Source of the DNA: Treponema sp.
GTDB taxonomy: Bacteria; Spirochaetota; Spirochaetia; Treponematales; Breznakiellaceae
Reading direction: 5' to 3'
DNA length: 34,716 nucleotides
Assembly (NCBI GenBank): GCA_031290475.1
Contig: JAITNM010000053.1
Location: 1 to 34,716, forward strand
Shown here piece by piece: positions 5,083 to 23,622 of this stretch (positions are counted from its first letter, which is position 1; every line of letters starts with the position of its first letter). The position numbers and the translations under genes were made by a program. The notes below the pieces were generated by a model, which saw only the letters and a program-made list of their open reading frames with translations, was not told the DNA's origin and ran no database searches.

Positions 5083-6192
5083 TTGGCATCAAAAGTTTAT
5101 TTTACTGACATGAGGTGTAAACTCGGAGAAAGTCTTCTGACTAAGATGGATCGGCTGATTCAGAAGGCGGGAATCGGGGAAATTGATTTCAAGCAGAAAT
5201 ATGCGGCTATCAAGATCCATTTTGGCGAACCGGGGAATCTGGCCTTCCTGAGGCCCAACTTTGCCAAGGTTGTAGTTAACCGGATTAAAGCCCTGGGGGG
5301 TATGCCTTTTTTGACGGATTGTAATACCCTCTACGTAGGAAACCGTAACCAGGGGCTTAATCACCTGGACGCGGCGAATGAAAACGGCTTCTGGCCCATG
5401 TCCACGGGCTGCCAGAACATTATCGCCGATGGTATCCGGGGTACCGATGATATTGATGTACCGGTTAAAAACGGCGAATACTGTAAGTTTGCCCATATTG
5501 GCCGTGCGATAATGGATGCTGATATTTTTGTTTCCCTAAGTCACTTCAAAGGACACGAAAACACCGGATTTGGCGGCGCTTTGAAAAACATCGGTATGGG
5601 CTGCGGAAGCCGGGCGGGCAAGATGGCTATGCATAATGACAGCAAGCCCACTGTTGACCAGAGCGCCTGTATAGGCTGTAAGATCTGCAGCCGGTTCTGT
5701 AACCAGGACGCCTTCAGCTTTGAGGCAAAAGGCAAGGCTGAAATTGATCAGAATAAGTGCGTAGGCTGCGGACGCTGTATCGGTGCGTGCAGTAAAAACG
5801 CCATCGGAGCTTCCTGGGATTCCAGTAACCTGGCGCTGAACTGCAAGATCGCCGAGTACACCAAGGCGGTAGTGGACGGACGGCCCAATTTTCATATCAA
5901 TGTGGTAAATCAGGTTTCGCCCAATTGCGACTGTCACAATGAAAGTGATGCGGCGGTTATTCCCGATATTGGCATTTTCGCAAGTTTTGATCCCGTGGCC
6001 CTGGATAAAGCCTGCCTCGATGCGGCGAACGCCGCGCCTCCGATACTTACCAGTATCTTGGGCGACCGGGAGCGTACCCATCATAATCACTTTACGGATA
6101 TCCATCCCACTTCTGATAGCAAGACTCAGATATCCCATGGGGAGAAAATCGGTCTTGGTTCCGGTAAGTACGAACTTATAACCGTGAAGTAG
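5083..6192 (+). CDS. DUF362 family protein with two 4Fe-4S clusters
   Basis: The 369-residue cytoplasmic protein has a DUF362-type core with a central ferredoxin module. Two CxxCxxCxxxC motifs lie at roughly residues 190-240, CIGCKICSRFC and CVGCGRCIGAC, which should each ligate a 4Fe-4S cluster. Upstream segments such as KIHFGEPGNLAFLRPNF and SHFKGHENTGFGGALKNIGMG are typical of this family, usually annotated as an uncharacterised Fe-S centre protein. A later CDCH motif may be another metal or redox site. The reaction is unknown; a role in electron transfer or anaerobic metabolism is inference. A TTG start at 5083 is chosen because GAGAGG (5069-5074) lies eight bases upstream, while a possible GTG at 5074 overlaps that ribosome-binding site. 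It follows glnS by 18 bases. Confidence 0.85.
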   Translation: MASKVYFTDMRCKLGESLLTKMDRLIQKAGIGEIDFKQKYAAIKIHFGEPGNLAFLRPNFAKVVVNRIKALGGMPFLTDCNTLYVGNRNQGLNHLDAANENGFWPMSTGCQNIIADGIRGTDDIDVPVKNGEYCKFAHIGRAIMDADIFVSLSHFKGHENTGFGGALKNIGMGCGSRAGKMAMHNDSKPTVDQSACIGCKICSRFCNQDAFSFEAKGKAEIDQNKCVGCGRCIGACSKNAIGASWDSSNLALNCKIAEYTKAVVDGRPNFHINVVNQVSPNCDCHNESDAAVIPDIGIFASFDPVALDKACLDAANAAPPILTSILGDRERTHHNHFTDIHPTSDSKTQISHGEKIGLGSGKYELITVK

Positions 6193-6224: not shown

Positions 6225-8087
6225 TTAAGCTTCGCGGTAATTCTTTATCACTTCCATAAACATCTCCCCGTATTTTTCCAGCTTTATTTCGCCAACCCCC
6301 GAAACATCGAGGAACGCCGGGCGGTTTAAAGGCCGTTTCCGGCACATATCCCGCAGGCTTGCGTCGGAAAAGATGATGTACGGCGGTATATGGGCTTCAC
6401 GGGCAAGACGGGTCCTGAGATCCCGTAACTGCGTGAATAGCCCTTCATCCATAACGCCGGCATTTTCGTCATAAGCGGCGGCAGCCTCCGCCGTTGCGGG
6501 GGTGGCGGCCGCGGGGAACGGCTTTTTGGGATGCTTTTGTTCCCGGGGGAGCATCATGGAGAGGCTTTTCTTTTCCCTGAGTATTTCCTGAGCCCGGCTC
6601 GTGAGGTATACCACGGGGTATTCGTCTTCGGTTATGCCAAGGTATTTCCCGGTAACAAGATAATCCAGCATGGTGCGGAGCCGGTGGGCATCAGTCTCCG
6701 CCATGATGCCGTAGGTACTCAGTTTGTCCAGGCCAAAACCTTGAATCTTTTTGTTTTTACTGCCCCGCAGTATTTCTATCACCATTGTTTTTCCGAAACG
6801 GCGGCGATGCTCCTCGATCCGGTACACGCAGGAAAGTATCTTTTGCGCAGGAATAGTAATGTCTATTTCTTCATATTCGGTATTGCAGTTTGAACAGTTC
6901 CCGCAATAATGAGGAGCGCTTTCACCAAAATAAGAGAGGAGCCTGGAACGGAGACAATCCTGGCTTGTGGCATAAAAGGTCATTTCTTTAAGGAGTTCCA
7001 GGTTGTGTTCGATAAGCTCTTCGTTTTTTTCGCTTTCATTTTCCCGGCTGTTGTTGATAAGAAAACGGTTGATGTGCACATCCTGAGGGCTGTAGAGGAG
7101 TATGCAGTCCGCTTTTTCTCCGTCACGGCCCGCCCGGCCCGCTTCCTGGTAGTAGCTTTCGATGTTTTTTGGCATGTTGTAGTGGATAACAAAACTCACA
7201 TTGGATTTATCTATCCCCATGCCGAAAGCATTGGTCGCCACCATGACTGTTTTTTTATCGTAGATAAAATCGTCCTGGTTTTGATGACGTTCCCTGTCAT
7301 CAAGTCCCGCGTGATATTTTGTGACCGCATATCCCCGGCCGCCTAAGGCCCCCCAAAGCTCTTCAACAGTTTTTCTCGTGGCAGAGTAAATAATACCGCT
7401 TTTATTTTTCCGATCCTGGAGTTCTGCAAGCAAGGCCTGAAATTTATCTTTTGGATGCCGTACCTCAAAATAGAGGTTCTCTCTGTTGAAGCCGGTAGTA
7501 AGGGTAAATGGCTCTTTCAAATTAAGCATACGAATAATATCTTCCCGCACTTTTCCTGTGGCGGTAGCGGTGAATGCGGCGGTAATGGGCCGTTTGGGGA
7601 GCCGGGTAATAAATTCGGTGATCTGCAAATAGCTGGGCCTGAAATCGTGTCCCCATTGGGAAACGCAGTGGGCCTCGTCGATTACTGTGAGGGGGATTTC
7701 CCGGGAAAGGCTGATTTGGGGCGGCAAACCTTTTTGGAGCCGTTCCGGGGCAACATAGAGGATTTTGATTTCCCCCGATACAACACGGGAAATAGTATCA
7801 GCGTACGCTTCCTGGCTAAGGGAACTGTTGAGGTACGCCGCCGGAATACCCGCATCCTCTAAGGCGTTCACCTGATCCTTCATGAGCGAAATAAGAGGAG
7901 ATATAACAACGGTAAGCCCCTCTAAAAGCAGGGCCGGCGTCTGATAACAAAGGGACTTCCCCGCACCTGTGGGCATAACCGCCAGGGCATCCTTTCCCGC
8001 AAGGATGGCATCAATAACCTCCTCCTGACCGGGGCGGAAACTGGTGTACCCAAAATGGTTTTTAAGGATGGCGTGTTTATCCTGCAT
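6225..8087 (-). CDS. recQ: ATP-dependent DNA helicase RecQ
   Basis: A 620-residue superfamily 2 3'-5' DNA helicase acting in recombination and replication-fork repair. Domains in order are as follows. The first helicase lobe carries Walker A TGAGKS (about 40-45) and the DEAH box (137-140) followed by the RecQ-specific aromatic-rich loop. The second lobe ends in the SYYQEAGRAGRDG motif. The zinc-binding subdomain has Cys near QDCLRS, then CGNCSNC. A winged-helix segment follows, and a C-terminal HRDC domain covers roughly the last 75 residues. All key catalytic residues are present and the length is normal. A low-complexity Ala-rich linker precedes the HRDC domain. It is transcribed convergently with the DUF362 gene, only 32 bases apart, with no obvious terminator. 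Confidence 0.95.
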   Translation of the reverse strand: MQDKHAILKNHFGYTSFRPGQEEVIDAILAGKDALAVMPTGAGKSLCYQTPALLLEGLTVVISPLISLMKDQVNALEDAGIPAAYLNSSLSQEAYADTISRVVSGEIKILYVAPERLQKGLPPQISLSREIPLTVIDEAHCVSQWGHDFRPSYLQITEFITRLPKRPITAAFTATATGKVREDIIRMLNLKEPFTLTTGFNRENLYFEVRHPKDKFQALLAELQDRKNKSGIIYSATRKTVEELWGALGGRGYAVTKYHAGLDDRERHQNQDDFIYDKKTVMVATNAFGMGIDKSNVSFVIHYNMPKNIESYYQEAGRAGRDGEKADCILLYSPQDVHINRFLINNSRENESEKNEELIEHNLELLKEMTFYATSQDCLRSRLLSYFGESAPHYCGNCSNCNTEYEEIDITIPAQKILSCVYRIEEHRRRFGKTMVIEILRGSKNKKIQGFGLDKLSTYGIMAETDAHRLRTMLDYLVTGKYLGITEDEYPVVYLTSRAQEILREKKSLSMMLPREQKHPKKPFPAAATPATAEAAAAYDENAGVMDEGLFTQLRDLRTRLAREAHIPPYIIFSDASLRDMCRKRPLNRPAFLDVSGVGEIKLEKYGEMFMEVIKNYREA

Positions 8088-20033: not shown

Positions 20034-20372
20034 TTACTCTAATTCCTGAATTAATCGGTCTATTTCGGCAACGAACCGCTCTTTTACCAGGATCAACTCC
20101 TGTAAAAGCGCCTCATGGGTATGGGATTTAGCTATTTCGACCGGGTGCTCCAAAAAAAGCTGATAGGGCAGTATCCCCAGGGTGTCGGATATGCACTGAA
20201 CCACTTCGGGGGAAGGGAAGTTTTTCCCGTTTTCCACGGCGTTAAGGTAGTTGGGAGAAATGTCTATGAGTTCCGAAAATTTTAGCTGGCTTATTCCCCT
20301 TTTCCCCCGGAAAGATCGAAGATTTTTGATAAACACGTCCTGGAAATGAGTCATAAAACCAGGATAAGACAT
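20034..20372 (-). CDS. XRE-family transcriptional regulator
   Basis: A 112-residue DNA-binding protein. A helix-turn-helix of the Cro/C1 type covers about residues 17-72, with the recognisable pattern GISQLKFSELIDISPNYLNAVENGKNFPSPEVVQCISDTLGI. The C-terminal third is charged and helical (LLQELILVKERFVAEIDRLIQELE), probably a dimerising coiled coil. AAGGA lies seven bases before the ATG at 20372. It is divergent from the CsgG-like gene at 20512, and the shared gap holds spaced TTACAG repeats, one overlapping that gene's -35. The gene is followed at once by the polysaccharide deacetylase-like lipoprotein. A role as regulator of this locus is inferred from position. Confidence 0.88.
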   Translation of the reverse strand: MSYPGFMTHFQDVFIKNLRSFRGKRGISQLKFSELIDISPNYLNAVENGKNFPSPEVVQCISDTLGILPYQLFLEHPVEIAKSHTHEALLQELILVKERFVAEIDRLIQELE

Positions 20373-20397: not shown

Positions 20398-20486
20398 TTA
20401 CAGTTATTTTAACTCTTTTACAGTTGACTTTATTTATTAGATGGAGCATAATTAAGGCTAATACCGTTGTAATACGTGTTTTACAG
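20398..20486. promoter_or_regulatory. Direct-repeat operator candidate in the XRE/CsgG-like intergenic gap
   Basis: TTACAGTT occurs at 20398-20405 and again at 20418-20425, exactly 20 bp apart. A shorter TTACAG lies at 20481-20486, 63 bp further. These spacings are close to whole helical turns. The second copy overlaps the -35 hexamer of the CsgG-like gene. Direct repeats next to a divergent XRE gene are a plausible binding site for that regulator, but this is inference. Confidence 0.45.
20424..20452 (+). promoter_or_regulatory. Sigma-70-type promoter for the CsgG-like gene
   Basis: TTGACT (20424-20429), a 17-bp spacer and CATAAT (20447-20452) each match the consensus at five of six positions. 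Transcription would begin near 20459 and leave a leader of about 50 bases before the ATG at 20512. Confidence 0.6.
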
Positions 20487-20511
20487 CGATTTATCAAATT
20501 GGAGGTACGTT

Positions 20512-21276
20512 ATGAAAAGGTTGTTTTTGGTAGGTCTCAGTCTATTTTTTGTCAGTATCCTTTCAGCTCAAGAGGCGTTAACGCTTACAGATGCAATTTT
20601 TGAAGCGGCAGGCGAAATTCAGGGAAGGGTTCGAAGAAATAGTATAGTGGCAATATTGGACATAAGTTCGCGGTCCGGGCGTATGAGCGAGCATATTTTT
20701 GAAGAACTGATGGCGGAAATAGTCAACGGAAGCTACGCGACTGTTGTTGAGCGCGATCAAATTGATTTGATACTAGATGAGTTAGAGTATCAAAACGATG
20801 CGGGGGTAAGTGATAGATCCGCCGCCAGAGCCGGAAGAATGTTGGGTGCTCAGTACATTGTTACAGGAACTTTTGATCAGGAGAATGAAGATTTTCGTTT
20901 GAGAATCAAGGTAATTGAAGTGGAGTCCACCGCAGTCAGACTGATGTTCAATACTAGAGTTATCAGTGATTCATCGGTCGTTAGTTTAATGGGCCGAAGA
21001 GGTTCTTCCAGTTCTCTTACTAATGATCAACAAAGAATTCTTGAAATAGCGGAAGCTGAAATACTTTCCTATTTTAGACGCTATAAGCCTAAAGCAGATA
21101 TAGATGGCAATAAAGTTCACGGTGAGGCTAAGTATGGCAAGGATAATGTTAAGATTGATGTTACTTTTAGCCGTGGTGATTATAGAATTGATATTGTCAG
21201 TACTGCTAATGCGAGAGAGATAAATAAGTGGAAGGCAACACTTAAGTCACGTATTGACAAGAAACTGGGGAAATAG
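20512..21276 (+). CDS. CsgG-like exported protein
   Basis: A 254-residue protein with a clear signal peptide (MKRLFLVGLSLFFVSILSAQ), probably cleaved after SILSA. The mature part resembles the CsgG/LpoB-like fold. It begins with a strand like SIVAILDISS, then a helix EHIFEELMAEIVNG, then SYATVVERDQIDLILDELEYQ and ARAGRMLGAQYIVTGTFDQE, which is the typical order in this fold. There is no lipobox, so it should be periplasmic or loosely attached to the outer membrane rather than a lipoprotein. The C-terminal third is charged and unrecognised. The start follows GGAGG by seven bases. Function is unknown; relatives act in outer-membrane secretion or as envelope accessory proteins. Confidence 0.75.
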   Translation: MKRLFLVGLSLFFVSILSAQEALTLTDAIFEAAGEIQGRVRRNSIVAILDISSRSGRMSEHIFEELMAEIVNGSYATVVERDQIDLILDELEYQNDAGVSDRSAARAGRMLGAQYIVTGTFDQENEDFRLRIKVIEVESTAVRLMFNTRVISDSSVVSLMGRRGSSSSLTNDQQRILEIAEAEILSYFRRYKPKADIDGNKVHGEAKYGKDNVKIDVTFSRGDYRIDIVSTANAREINKWKATLKSRIDKKLGK

Positions 21277-21309
21277 AGCCCTTCTAATCGTATTAAGATC
21301 GTTCATGTA

Positions 21310-21329
21310 CCCGCAGCGCCTGCTGCGGG
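21310..21329 (+). terminator. Hairpin after the CsgG-like gene
   Basis: A perfect 8-bp stem CCCGCAGC/GCTGCGGG with a four-base loop lies 34 bases after the stop codon. No T-run follows immediately, so intrinsic termination is possible but not proven. Confidence 0.45.
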
Positions 21330-21435
21330 GAAAGTCACCGCGTTCGTCCTTTGGTGATTTTAAAATTTGTTTAACATAAACGATATTCGTATGAATGTCG
21401 AAAGTGACGGTGGGAAAAACCACAAAGGAAATATC

Positions 21436-21666
21436 ATGAAAAAAAGGAGAATTTTAACCGTAGTATTTCTGGGATTGTTGCTGATGGCAGGATCGGTTCT
21501 GGCAAGTTGCGACAACATAGCATCATTATTAGGCGGCGGCAGTGACAGTAGTGGCGAAAAAAGCAACTGTCCAGATGGTGGGGACTGTTATGTGTCTCCT
21601 AGTGGTAACTACCAATGGTGTGGTAAGTCCAGTTGCGGAGATGAGGACTATCGGTGTAATTGCTAA
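21436..21666 (+). CDS. Small cysteine-rich lipoprotein
   Basis: A 76-residue lipoprotein. The signal peptide starts MKKRRILTVVFLGLLLMAG and the lipobox reads LASC, so lipidation of that Cys and anchoring in the inner or outer membrane is expected. The short mature part has a Gly/Ser-rich linker and then six cysteines in three close pairs (CPDGGDC, CGKSSC, CNC), suggesting three disulphides or a metal knot in a compact exported domain. AAAGGAA lies about six bases before the ATG at 21436; a longer in-frame start at 21367 lacks a ribosome-binding site and would spoil the signal peptide. Its last two codons and stop fall inside the first copy of a 102-bp direct repeat. I know no named family for it. 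Confidence 0.72.
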   Translation: MKKRRILTVVFLGLLLMAGSVLASCDNIASLLGGGSDSSGEKSNCPDGGDCYVSPSGNYQWCGKSSCGDEDYRCNC

Positions 21667-21756
21667 TTGCCGGTAACCCGAGGCAGTTTCAATCTTCAGG
21701 CATTGAAACTGCCGCTTTACAAGCTTATAGGGGAACTATGAAAAACAGAATTGTAA
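21655..21756 (+). repeat. 102-bp direct repeat, copy 1
   Basis: This copy aligns with 22384-22485 at a constant offset of 729 bases, with about eight differences by eye. It covers the end of the lipoprotein gene, a 12-bp perfect hairpin (21682-21713, GGCAGTTTCAAT and its complement), an AGGGGA ribosome-binding site and the first codons of a DUF4418-like gene. Confidence 0.9.
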
Positions 21757-21761
21757 TATGA
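21738..21761 (+). pseudogene. Seven-codon remnant of a DUF4418 gene start (possible leader peptide)
   Basis: The reading frame MKNRIVI ends in TGA and overlaps the ATG of the beta-barrel gene in an ATGA junction. It corresponds to the first residues MKNRII of the intact DUF4418 protein at 22467 and keeps that gene's AGGGGA ribosome-binding site. It therefore looks like the truncated 5' end of a second DUF4418 gene that may now act as a translational coupling leader. Confidence 0.65.
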
Positions 21762-22375
21762 AGAGATTATTAATTATTGGGATATTTTTTATTGTTGCTT
21801 CTTTACCAGCTTTTGCAGAAGGTTTTTATATTGATATTGGCACGGGCCTTGGTATAGGTTGGACTGAGATAGACGGTTATAATATGACTGACGGATTTAA
21901 CTCTGCCGAGATTGATGAATTTGCGACTGATCTTGGATTAAAAATTGGTGGTGGGCCTTTTGGCAGTGTACCGCTTTATGGTGTATTGGAATTCGCTGCA
22001 ATGGGGCATAGATATGATAGCAGCTCAAACTACTGGCAGTTTAATTCATACCTAATTGGTCCCGGTATTATTTTTTATCCTGTGCCACTTATTCAGCTTG
22101 CGTTGTCTGGAGGACTTTCTTGGGTTTCAAATCAAGCGGATGCTTCTAACGCATCAATGTTAATGTACGATAGTAAAGGCGGGTTTGCCTGGAATGTTTC
22201 AGCAGCGTTTGATTTGGGAGAGCGTAACCATGGATGCTTAATTGGTTTAAGGTATTTTGCCGCCTATAATATTCTAGAAGCATCCAATGGAAAAAACATA
22301 GTAGATGAAAAATCATCGGCGATTAGTATTATTGTTAAATACGCTTATAGACATAAAGTAAATAAAAAAAGGTAG
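21758..22375 (+). CDS. Outer-membrane beta-barrel protein candidate
   Basis: A 205-residue exported protein with signal peptide MKRLLIIGIFFIVASLPAFA, cleaved after AFA. The mature part alternates short glycine- and aromatic-rich strands (FYIDIGTGLGIGWTEI, LYGVLEFAAMGHRYD, SYLIGPGIIFYPVP, IQLALSGGLSWVS, GCLIGLRYFAAYNI, SAISIIVKYAYRHK). This suggests an eight-strand or so outer-membrane barrel of the OmpX/OmpW size class. The specific family is not recognised. The gene is AT-richer than the housekeeping genes around and is flanked by 102-bp direct repeats. It has no ribosome-binding site close to its own ATG; the nearest AGGGG is 24 bases upstream and belongs to the overlapping seven-codon leader. 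Insertion and coupling are inferred. Confidence 0.7.
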   Translation: MKRLLIIGIFFIVASLPAFAEGFYIDIGTGLGIGWTEIDGYNMTDGFNSAEIDEFATDLGLKIGGGPFGSVPLYGVLEFAAMGHRYDSSSNYWQFNSYLIGPGIIFYPVPLIQLALSGGLSWVSNQADASNASMLMYDSKGGFAWNVSAAFDLGERNHGCLIGLRYFAAYNILEASNGKNIVDEKSSAISIIVKYAYRHKVNKKR

Positions 22376-22383
22376 GCCAGAGT

Positions 22384-22485
22384 TGTGATTGCTAATTGCC
22401 GGTAATCCAAGGCAGTTTCAATCTTCCGGCATTGAAACCGCCGCTTTACAAGCTTATAGGGGAACGATGAAAAATAGAATTATAA
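22384..22485 (+). repeat. 102-bp direct repeat, copy 2
   Basis: The second copy keeps the hairpin with one mismatch (22411-22442), the AGGGGA ribosome-binding site and the ATG, and here leads into the intact DUF4418 gene. The left end matches the last codons of the lipoprotein gene although no such gene precedes it here. This suggests that the lipoprotein and DUF4418 genes were once adjacent. Confidence 0.9.
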
Positions 22486-22904
22486 GCGGTTCAGTTACGA
22501 TTGTTCTGGGGCTTCTTATTGCTCTTGGCCCGCAGTTCATATTTAGAGTCTGTAAATTTATGGAAGATAATTATCCAAGATGTCATTGGTCGGCGCAGGC
22601 GGAGATTGGTATGGGAATGATAATCGCCGCATTGGGCGTCTGCCTGATGGTTTTTGATGAACAAAAAACACGGTTAGGACTGAATATTGGAATATTCCTG
22701 GCAAGTATTGTTGTCCTGTTCATTCCCCATGCGCTTATTGGCGGCTGTAACATGATGTCTATGACCTGCCGCAGAGTCGCTTTTCCGGCGCTGAGCGTTA
22801 TCAGCATACTGATATTGGTTGGCGCTGTGGCCAATATGTTTTATCTTGAGGGTAAAACGCGAAAGGCCGATAAGCAGGAGATGGCGGCTCAAAGGTCATC
22901 GTGA
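22467..22904 (+). CDS. DUF4418 family membrane protein
   Basis: A 145-residue integral membrane protein. It starts MKNRIISGSVTIVLGLLIALGP and has about four hydrophobic helices. Family hallmarks are the CHWSAQAEIGMGMIIAALG and HALIGGCNMMSMTCRRVAFP segments with conserved Cys/His residues, which could bind metal or sense redox state. The function of the family is unknown. The ATG at 22467 is chosen because AGGGGA precedes it and because this is where the duplicated copy also begins; an upstream in-frame TTG (22389) lies inside the repeat. It is followed by the vapBC module. The tail after the last helix is short and charged. Confidence 0.8.
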   Translation: MKNRIISGSVTIVLGLLIALGPQFIFRVCKFMEDNYPRCHWSAQAEIGMGMIIAALGVCLMVFDEQKTRLGLNIGIFLASIVVLFIPHALIGGCNMMSMTCRRVAFPALSVISILILVGAVANMFYLEGKTRKADKQEMAAQRSS

Positions 22905-22956
22905 TACGCGTTTTTTCGTGGCTCCATGGGATTTTGTATAAACTCTGCATAAACTC

Positions 22957-22985
22957 TTGACAAAAGAGAAGCCAAGGTGTATATT
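22957..22985 (+). promoter_or_regulatory. vapBC promoter
   Basis: A perfect TTGACA (22957-22962), a 17-bp spacer and TATATT (22980-22985, five of six) lie directly before vapB. The -10 is embedded in the palindromic operator at 22972-23007. Confidence 0.7.
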
Positions 22986-23007
22986 TTGAGTTAAAAATAC
23001 ACCTTGG
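22972..23007. promoter_or_regulatory. Palindromic operator of vapBC
   Basis: Perfect 11-bp arms CCAAGGTGTAT and ATACACCTTGG flank a 14-base centre that is itself partly symmetrical (TTTT and AAAA). The left arm overlaps the -10 box and the right arm ends at the GGAGG ribosome-binding site. This is the expected layout for autorepression by the VapB antitoxin or the VapBC complex. Confidence 0.65.
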
Positions 23008-23021
23008 AGGTATGGTTGGTT

Positions 23022-23213
23022 ATGAGAACAAATATAGATTTGGACGAAAATTTAGTAAAAAAAGCTATGGAAATTACTGGAATGAGCACCAAAAAAGCGG
23101 TCATAAATATGATTTTAACTGATTATATTAGGCGAAATAATCAAAAAAACATATTAAAATATCGTGGAAAGAAAATATGGGAAGGTGACATTGAAGAAAT
23201 GAGGAAAAATTGA
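23022..23213 (+). CDS. vapB: VapB-type antitoxin
   Basis: A 63-residue antitoxin. The N-terminal MRTNIDLDENLVKKAMEITG segment is a ribbon-helix-helix DNA-binding domain as in type II VapB proteins, with an N-terminal strand and then two helices (TKKAVINMILTDYIRR). The C-terminus (about residues 43-63) is short and charged and should wrap and inhibit the toxin. The ATG at 23022 matches the family start; GGAGG lies about 11 bases upstream, and an in-frame TTG at 23016 with closer spacing is possible. The gene is strongly AT-rich compared with the neighbours, as is vapC, which suggests horizontal acquisition. vapC begins two bases after its stop. Confidence 0.82.
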   Translation: MRTNIDLDENLVKKAMEITGMSTKKAVINMILTDYIRRNNQKNILKYRGKKIWEGDIEEMRKN

Positions 23214-23214
23214 A

Positions 23215-23622
23215 ATGGACATTATAATTGATTCATCTGTTTGGATAGATTTTTTCAATTATTATGACTCAAAAGAAGCTGATGTTTTGCAGGAACTGGT
23301 TGAAAATAATTTCAGTAATAATATTTTCATTTGCCCTGCAATTTATATGGAGATTTTACGAGGGCTAAAAGATGATAATGCATTCTACGATATAAAAGAA
23401 ACGCTCTTAAATTTTTCAATTTTAGATAATGATATAATGACTATAACAGACCGTGCCATAAATATTTACAGGAATTTACGTAAAAAAGGAATCACCATAC
23501 GAAAACAAAATGACTGTTTAATAGCATCTTATGCTATTTATAATGGTATTCCAATATTTCATAAAGATAAGGACTTTGAAAAGATAGCAAGCGATACAAA
23601 ATTAAAGATATATGAGCCCTAA
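23215..23622 (+). CDS. vapC: VapC-type PIN-domain toxin
   Basis: A 135-residue PIN-domain ribonuclease, the toxin of a type II system that typically cleaves tRNA or rRNA. The acidic catalytic residues are visible: Asp6 in DSSVWIDFF, Glu46 in YMEILRGL, Asp100 in NDCLIASYA, and Asp118 in FHKDKDF. Length is normal for VapC. It is cotranscribed with vapB, and the protein is expected to be held inactive by VapB. The end of the gene is followed by a short decayed stretch with a Phd-like antitoxin remnant on the other strand. Codon use is AT-rich, unlike the nearby polyene genes. Confidence 0.87.
   Translation: MDIIIDSSVWIDFFNYYDSKEADVLQELVENNFSNNIFICPAIYMEILRGLKDDNAFYDIKETLLNFSILDNDIMTITDRAINIYRNLRKKGITIRKQNDCLIASYAIYNGIPIFHKDKDFEKIASDTKLKIYEP

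Follow-up and report, generated by a model that had tools for sequence, protein, structure and literature searches.

How does a gene come to lie between two neighboring genes and between two copies of their junction, and what would such a duplicated junction do for it and for its neighbors? This question is raised by a stretch of 34,716 nucleotides (here called the window), which is contig C40 of a draft genome of 3.2 Mb in 306 contigs, 87% complete, and very probably that of a treponeme from the termite gut, judging by the labels of related metagenome-assembled genomes (MAGs). From left to right the locus consists of an Xre-type HTH gene, a CsgG/LpoB-like gene, a lipoprotein gene, the first copy of a direct repeat, a barrel ORF, the second copy, a DUF4418 gene and a VapBC pair, and its features are as follows:

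20034..20372, minus strand: divergent Xre-type HTH regulator gene (HTH_19/HTH_3 match)
20512-21276: CsgG/LpoB-like gene
21436..21666, plus strand: small Cys-rich lipoprotein gene, 76 aa, ending in Cys-Asn-Cys-stop (lipobox LASC, Cys pattern)
21655..21756, plus strand: repeat copy 1, with the lipoprotein end, a hairpin, a Shine-Dalgarno (SD) site and the first DUF4418 codons
21682..21713, plus strand: hairpin of copy 1, perfect 12-bp stem, downstream of the lipoprotein gene
21738..21761, plus strand: remnant DUF4418 start, ORF MKNRIVI-stop, whose TGA overlaps the barrel ATG (ATGA)
21758..22375, plus strand: putatively inserted gene for a small outer-membrane beta-barrel with a signal peptide, no SD site of its own (AlphaFold2, Foldseek)
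22384..22485, plus strand: repeat copy 2, the intact junction preceding DUF4418
22411..22442, plus strand: hairpin of copy 2, following the barrel gene, its stem with a single A.C mismatch
22467..22904, plus strand: DUF4418 membrane protein gene (PF14387, E 5.9e-29), native start conserved in relatives
23022-23622: VapBC pair

The two direct copies, 102 nt each, are identical at 94 of 102 positions, with eight substitutions, no gaps and a constant offset of 729, just as the initial annotation of this DNA had described them. Their divergence of 8% leaves a longest stretch without mismatch of 26 bp, and since a short-read assembler is unlikely to confuse copies that share so short an identical run, an assembly error behind the pair is unlikely. 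The next best ungapped match to the repeat in the whole window reaches 45/102, the chance expectation for the core motif of the repeat is 0.00, the 3.2-Mb assembly contains these two copies only, and a search of 148 relatives returned no copy, only short matches of 24-44 nt. The contents that had been ascribed to each copy (the last lipoprotein codons, a hairpin and the DUF4418 start) were found in both. Copy 1 starts within the last codons of the lipoprotein gene and copy 2 opens with Cys-Asp-Cys-stop in the same register, while the first seven DUF4418 codons are present in both copies, the seventh only partly. Between the copies lies an insert of 627 bp, that is the barrel ORF with one base before it and eight after it.

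The description of this ORF as a barrel proved right. The AlphaFold2 model, built on an alignment of eleven homologues (pLDDT 83.8, pTM 0.77), has eight predicted strands after the signal peptide, and its Foldseek matches include OmpW (E 2.9e-07), Ail, OmpX, NspA and OmpA; the sequence itself has no family match in Pfam and NCBIfam. The clear homologues, 41-63% identical in alignment, come from 10 places in related genomes, none of them near DUF4418, and these barrel genes are without a junction copy such as that flanking the barrel of the window. The GC content at third codon positions (GC3) is 0.29 in the barrel gene, 0.43 and 0.47 in its two neighbors and 0.57-0.66 in the majority of chromosomal genes nearby. 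The low value is shared in part by the entire stretch of 20.4-23.6 kb, however, so that composition alone is no proof of foreign origin. Searches of viral contigs with the barrel and with the repeat gave no matches, and a phage origin of either was rejected on this ground.

Which arrangement came first can be judged from relatives of the neighboring genes. The DUF4418 gene of the window is a clear member of its family (101.2 bits against a gathering score of 27), and a DUF4418 profile run against bacterial and archaeal genomes yielded 63 loci. The related ones are in MAGs labelled Treponema and Spirochaetaceae, whose isolate names are typical of termite guts, and in one named Candidatus Fibrimonas termitidis. 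A lipoprotein gene of the same build stands immediately before DUF4418 in eight of these loci (L072, L074, L080, L081, L090, L103, L109 and L122), which come from termite-gut MAGs of Treponema and one Fibrimonas and are used here as the outgroup. The lipoprotein of the window is 33-45% identical to its eight homologues, each directly before DUF4418, and the build of the outgroup proteins is a lipobox followed by about five conserved cysteines, mostly with Cys-x-Cys-stop at the end. The gap between the two genes measures 62-130 nt in the outgroup and 71 in the presumed ancestral junction of the window. Among the eight loci inspected there was neither a barrel between the genes (0/8) nor a junction repeated around a gene (0/8), these empty sites being from other genera only, where position and structure mark the junction as orthologous but its sequence does not align base by base. 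Elsewhere among the DUF4418 loci inspected, the gene preceding DUF4418 is often of the ABC-transporter or FtsX type (reading frames judged by eye).

The parsimonious reading of eight outgroup loci without the barrel, and of barrel homologues located elsewhere, is that the barrel joined later. DUF4418 relatives start with MKNRI or similar, so the start residues are native and conserved and the MKNRI of copy 1 is the remnant. An order of events in which lipoprotein, hairpin and DUF4418 came first, and the barrel later, with the junction duplicated, is thus well supported by the comparison of these sequences. The initial annotation had proposed the same history, with lipoprotein and DUF4418 genes as former neighbors, and the eight outgroup genomes, where the two are adjacent without barrel or repeat, agree with it; the contrary case which it had considered, the same order in all relatives, does not hold, as the order of the window was found in no relative.

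A strong hairpin is present in the lipoprotein-DUF4418 gap of all eight outgroup loci as well (z -2.1 to -6.6), and the sequences are unrelated; the position of the hairpin is thus kept from locus to locus and its sequence is not. Such a pattern would suit an element that acts in mRNA processing, attenuation or stability. An intrinsic terminator was rejected, since the hairpin of the window lacks a T run and was not called by terminator prediction, and no Rfam family was found, a chance sub-threshold match apart.

The seven-codon remnant suggests how the barrel gene could be expressed. In copy 1 the DUF4418 codons run into a TGA that overlaps the barrel ATG (ATGAAAAACAGAATTGTAATATGA, read as MKNRIVI-stop). 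The SD energy before the barrel is +0.2 kcal/mol, which amounts to none, versus -7.9 to -12.0 kcal/mol in the eight homologues examined, and the SD site before the remnant DUF4418 start in copy 1 has -6.4 kcal/mol. The absence of an SD site at the barrel, the duplicated site in front of the remnant and the ATGA overlap together indicate translational coupling, so that the barrel is probably translated from the duplicated DUF4418 start. An upstream stop overlapping a downstream start as ATGA is a textbook feature of coupling in bacterial operons. The locus shares with it this overlap and a downstream gene without a strong SD site, and differs in its upstream ORF, which is not a real gene but a leftover of seven codons from a duplicated gene start. 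We also infer that lipoprotein, barrel and DUF4418 genes are co-transcribed.

Taken together, the reading that we regard as likely is that an ancestral lipoprotein-hairpin-DUF4418 unit gained the barrel ORF, with its 102-bp junction duplicated, and that the barrel became translationally coupled in a settled, non-switching arrangement. A small outer-membrane barrel ORF would have entered the junction of the two-gene unit, possibly by illegitimate recombination or a template switch there, with 102 bp of this junction doubled around the insert. Copy 1 would preserve the lipoprotein end and its hairpin and lend the barrel a ribosome-binding site: translation could begin at the former DUF4418 ATG, run for seven codons to the TGA and, after termination there, resume at the barrel ATG that overlaps it. 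Copy 2 would give the barrel a downstream hairpin and restore a complete start for DUF4418. Neither neighbor would lose anything, the barrel would be placed in their operon, and all three genes would retain their start and stop signals, the duplicated junction acting as an expression cassette.

The route by which the barrel arrived is less constrained, as one-step models (template switching or a Campbell-type circle) and a two-step model would all be compatible with the locus; the insert contains no ORF besides the barrel, no transposase and no inverted ends, a 9-base match at its ends being rejected as an internal T-rich run. In two steps, a tandem duplication of the junction, by slippage or unequal exchange and perhaps at TGTAAT-like microhomology, would have been followed by capture of the barrel at the boundary of the copies. 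This is a possible though not a probable course. TGTAAT opens copy 1 and TTGTAAT closes it, and the T before copy 2 gives TTGTGAT, so that near-identical heptamers frame the insert, but boundary microhomology as good as this occurs in 3% of random 102-bp segments (p about 0.03), which makes it a weak argument. Leader duplications are present in relatives too (e.g. L072 1072-1233/2117-2276); the expected intermediate, a tandem duplication only, was seen in none of the eight loci.

Integration of a Campbell type, in which a circle outside the chromosome, carrying the barrel and one copy of the junction, recombined with the junction already in place, would yield exactly the observed order of junction, barrel and junction. 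It has a precedent in transposed genes of Arabidopsis, for which circles and homologous recombination were proposed and whose flanking direct repeats are derived from the target site, of host and not transposon sequence (PMC2869330). The flanking repeats of the window likewise match the target site and are host sequence, while the Arabidopsis case is eukaryotic, with its proposed circles and homologous recombination, and involves no operon or translational coupling. The circle requires that barrel and junction were linked earlier, and barrel homologues elsewhere are without such a junction, which leaves this route unlikely for the barrel of the window.

Whichever way the barrel arrived, the closest known phenomenon to the proposed duplication of the junction around it is insertion with long target duplication, described from two strains of Helicobacter pylori and frequently involving restriction-modification genes (Nobusato et al. 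2000, Gene 259:99, as cited in PMC1643837, PMC3031569 and PMC4978471). In both cases a gene unit of a bacterial chromosome is enclosed by long direct copies of its target, and both are recognised by comparing empty with occupied sites. The locus has the flanking 102-bp target copies, single-junction sites in eight loci of other genera, and no IS, transposon or integron machinery. Restriction-modification cargo, frequent in the Helicobacter system and not strictly required, is absent, the cargo being an eight-stranded outer-membrane barrel ORF, and the empty site is known from other genera, whereas the accounts cited show the empty allele within pairs of strains. A further difference from what they describe is that the duplicated target is here the exact junction of stop, hairpin, SD site and start, apparently put to use for expression, in a relative of Treponema. 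The case is a clear and well-preserved one of a rare, already described kind of insertion, set apart by its cargo, its phylum and the use to which the duplicated piece is apparently put.

The initial annotation had also suggested a phase-variation-like switch. Crossover between the copies would remove the barrel and one repeat and leave a mixture of ON and OFF cells. Direct orientation and the 729-bp spacing would indeed permit a precise deletion recreating the ancestral junction. The copies differ by eight mismatches, with a longest identical run of only 26 bp; a scan of the ORFs at 19-24 kb showed no recombinase; the assembly contains no alternative or deletion allele; and the hairpin of copy 2 has begun to decay, which argues against ongoing homogenisation of the copies. 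We consider such a switch very improbable: the arrangement is better described as a settled insertion than as a genetic switch, and loss of the barrel by recombination is not supported. Treponemes are known to carry integrons, and the hairpin inside a repeat that flanks a gene could recall a dispersed or mobile element carrying cassettes (an integron attC, MITE or REP), but the repeat has two genomic copies only and includes the coding ends of both neighbors, and with no transposase or inverted ends in the insert and no match in viral contigs this explanation has practically no chance of being right. An integron gene cassette was rejected since neither attC core, RYYYAAC (R'') or GTTRRRY (R'), was present on either strand of each copy plus 20 bp, and a dispersed repeat was rejected on copy number.

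Duplicated leaders were also observed at other loci. At L072 a 164-bp lipoprotein leader including the start (1072-1233) is repeated with 77% identity (2117-2276) before an outer-membrane-like gene which follows DUF4418; on sequence grounds this is an independent leader duplication at a locus of the same kind, and it suggests that duplication of regulatory DNA alone also occurs in these genomes. In the genome of the window itself, of which about 0.6 Mb was surveyed in stretches for background repeats, a 155-bp upstream region at L152 on contig C18 (2801-2944 and 5230-5384, 84%) stands before two different minus-strand genes, one of them with a signal peptide, which is a possible second leader duplication. 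L090 has two repeat pairs (6355-6462 with 7342-7454, and 5442-5520 with 7534-7612) around DUF4418 and the lipoprotein-like genes that follow it. Repeat pairs number 4.8 per 100 kb at lipoprotein-DUF4418 loci versus 3.6 at DUF4418 loci without the lipoprotein, which is no enrichment, and G000 itself is lower, with 0.5. It is quite doubtful, then, whether junction duplication is a general route by which envelope-protein ORFs are slotted into operons of termite-gut treponemes, with a truncated start turned into a leader peptide; if it were, L072, L090, L162 and L152, where leaders are duplicated before unrelated envelope genes, would count as additional examples. Intact traces of how a gene was added inside an operon without harm to its neighbors are rarely found, and here a single locus combines a duplicated junction, a lost ribosome site, a remnant of seven codons whose stop overlaps the barrel start as ATGA, and an outgroup order without the barrel.

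The locus also draws attention to a conserved unit of Xre regulator, lipoprotein, hairpin and DUF4418 in termite-gut bacteria, apparently undescribed; in the open literature searched, a single paper mentions DUF4418. The HTH gene of the unit is of Xre type and divergent, the lipoprotein is small and Cys-rich, and the DUF4418 protein after the hairpin has invariant cysteines. The unit was observed in the window (20034-20372 and 21436-22904) and at L074, L080, L081, L103, L109, L122, L156 and L158. Counted without self-matches, the HTH gene is upstream and divergent in 7/9 lipoprotein-DUF4418 loci and in 2/3 loci with the lipoprotein only, HTH_19 matches number only 17 across the 3.2-Mb genome, and the HTH proteins of the module belong to more than one subfamily. 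The HTH gene at 20034..20372 is probably a member of this module. The part of the window from 20400 to 23622, with the CsgG/LpoB-like gene, the three-gene unit and the VapBC pair, is AT-rich (GC3 0.24-0.47) and flanked by GC-richer genes, e.g. accA/accD-like and ketosynthase genes, and looks like a variable chromosomal spot. Close relatives of the DUF4418 protein, with about 49-60% identity, were found at L107, L112 and L074 in MAGs labelled Synergistaceae, Deferribacteraceae and Fibrimonas, a spread which suggests either transfer across phyla in termite guts or errors of binning.
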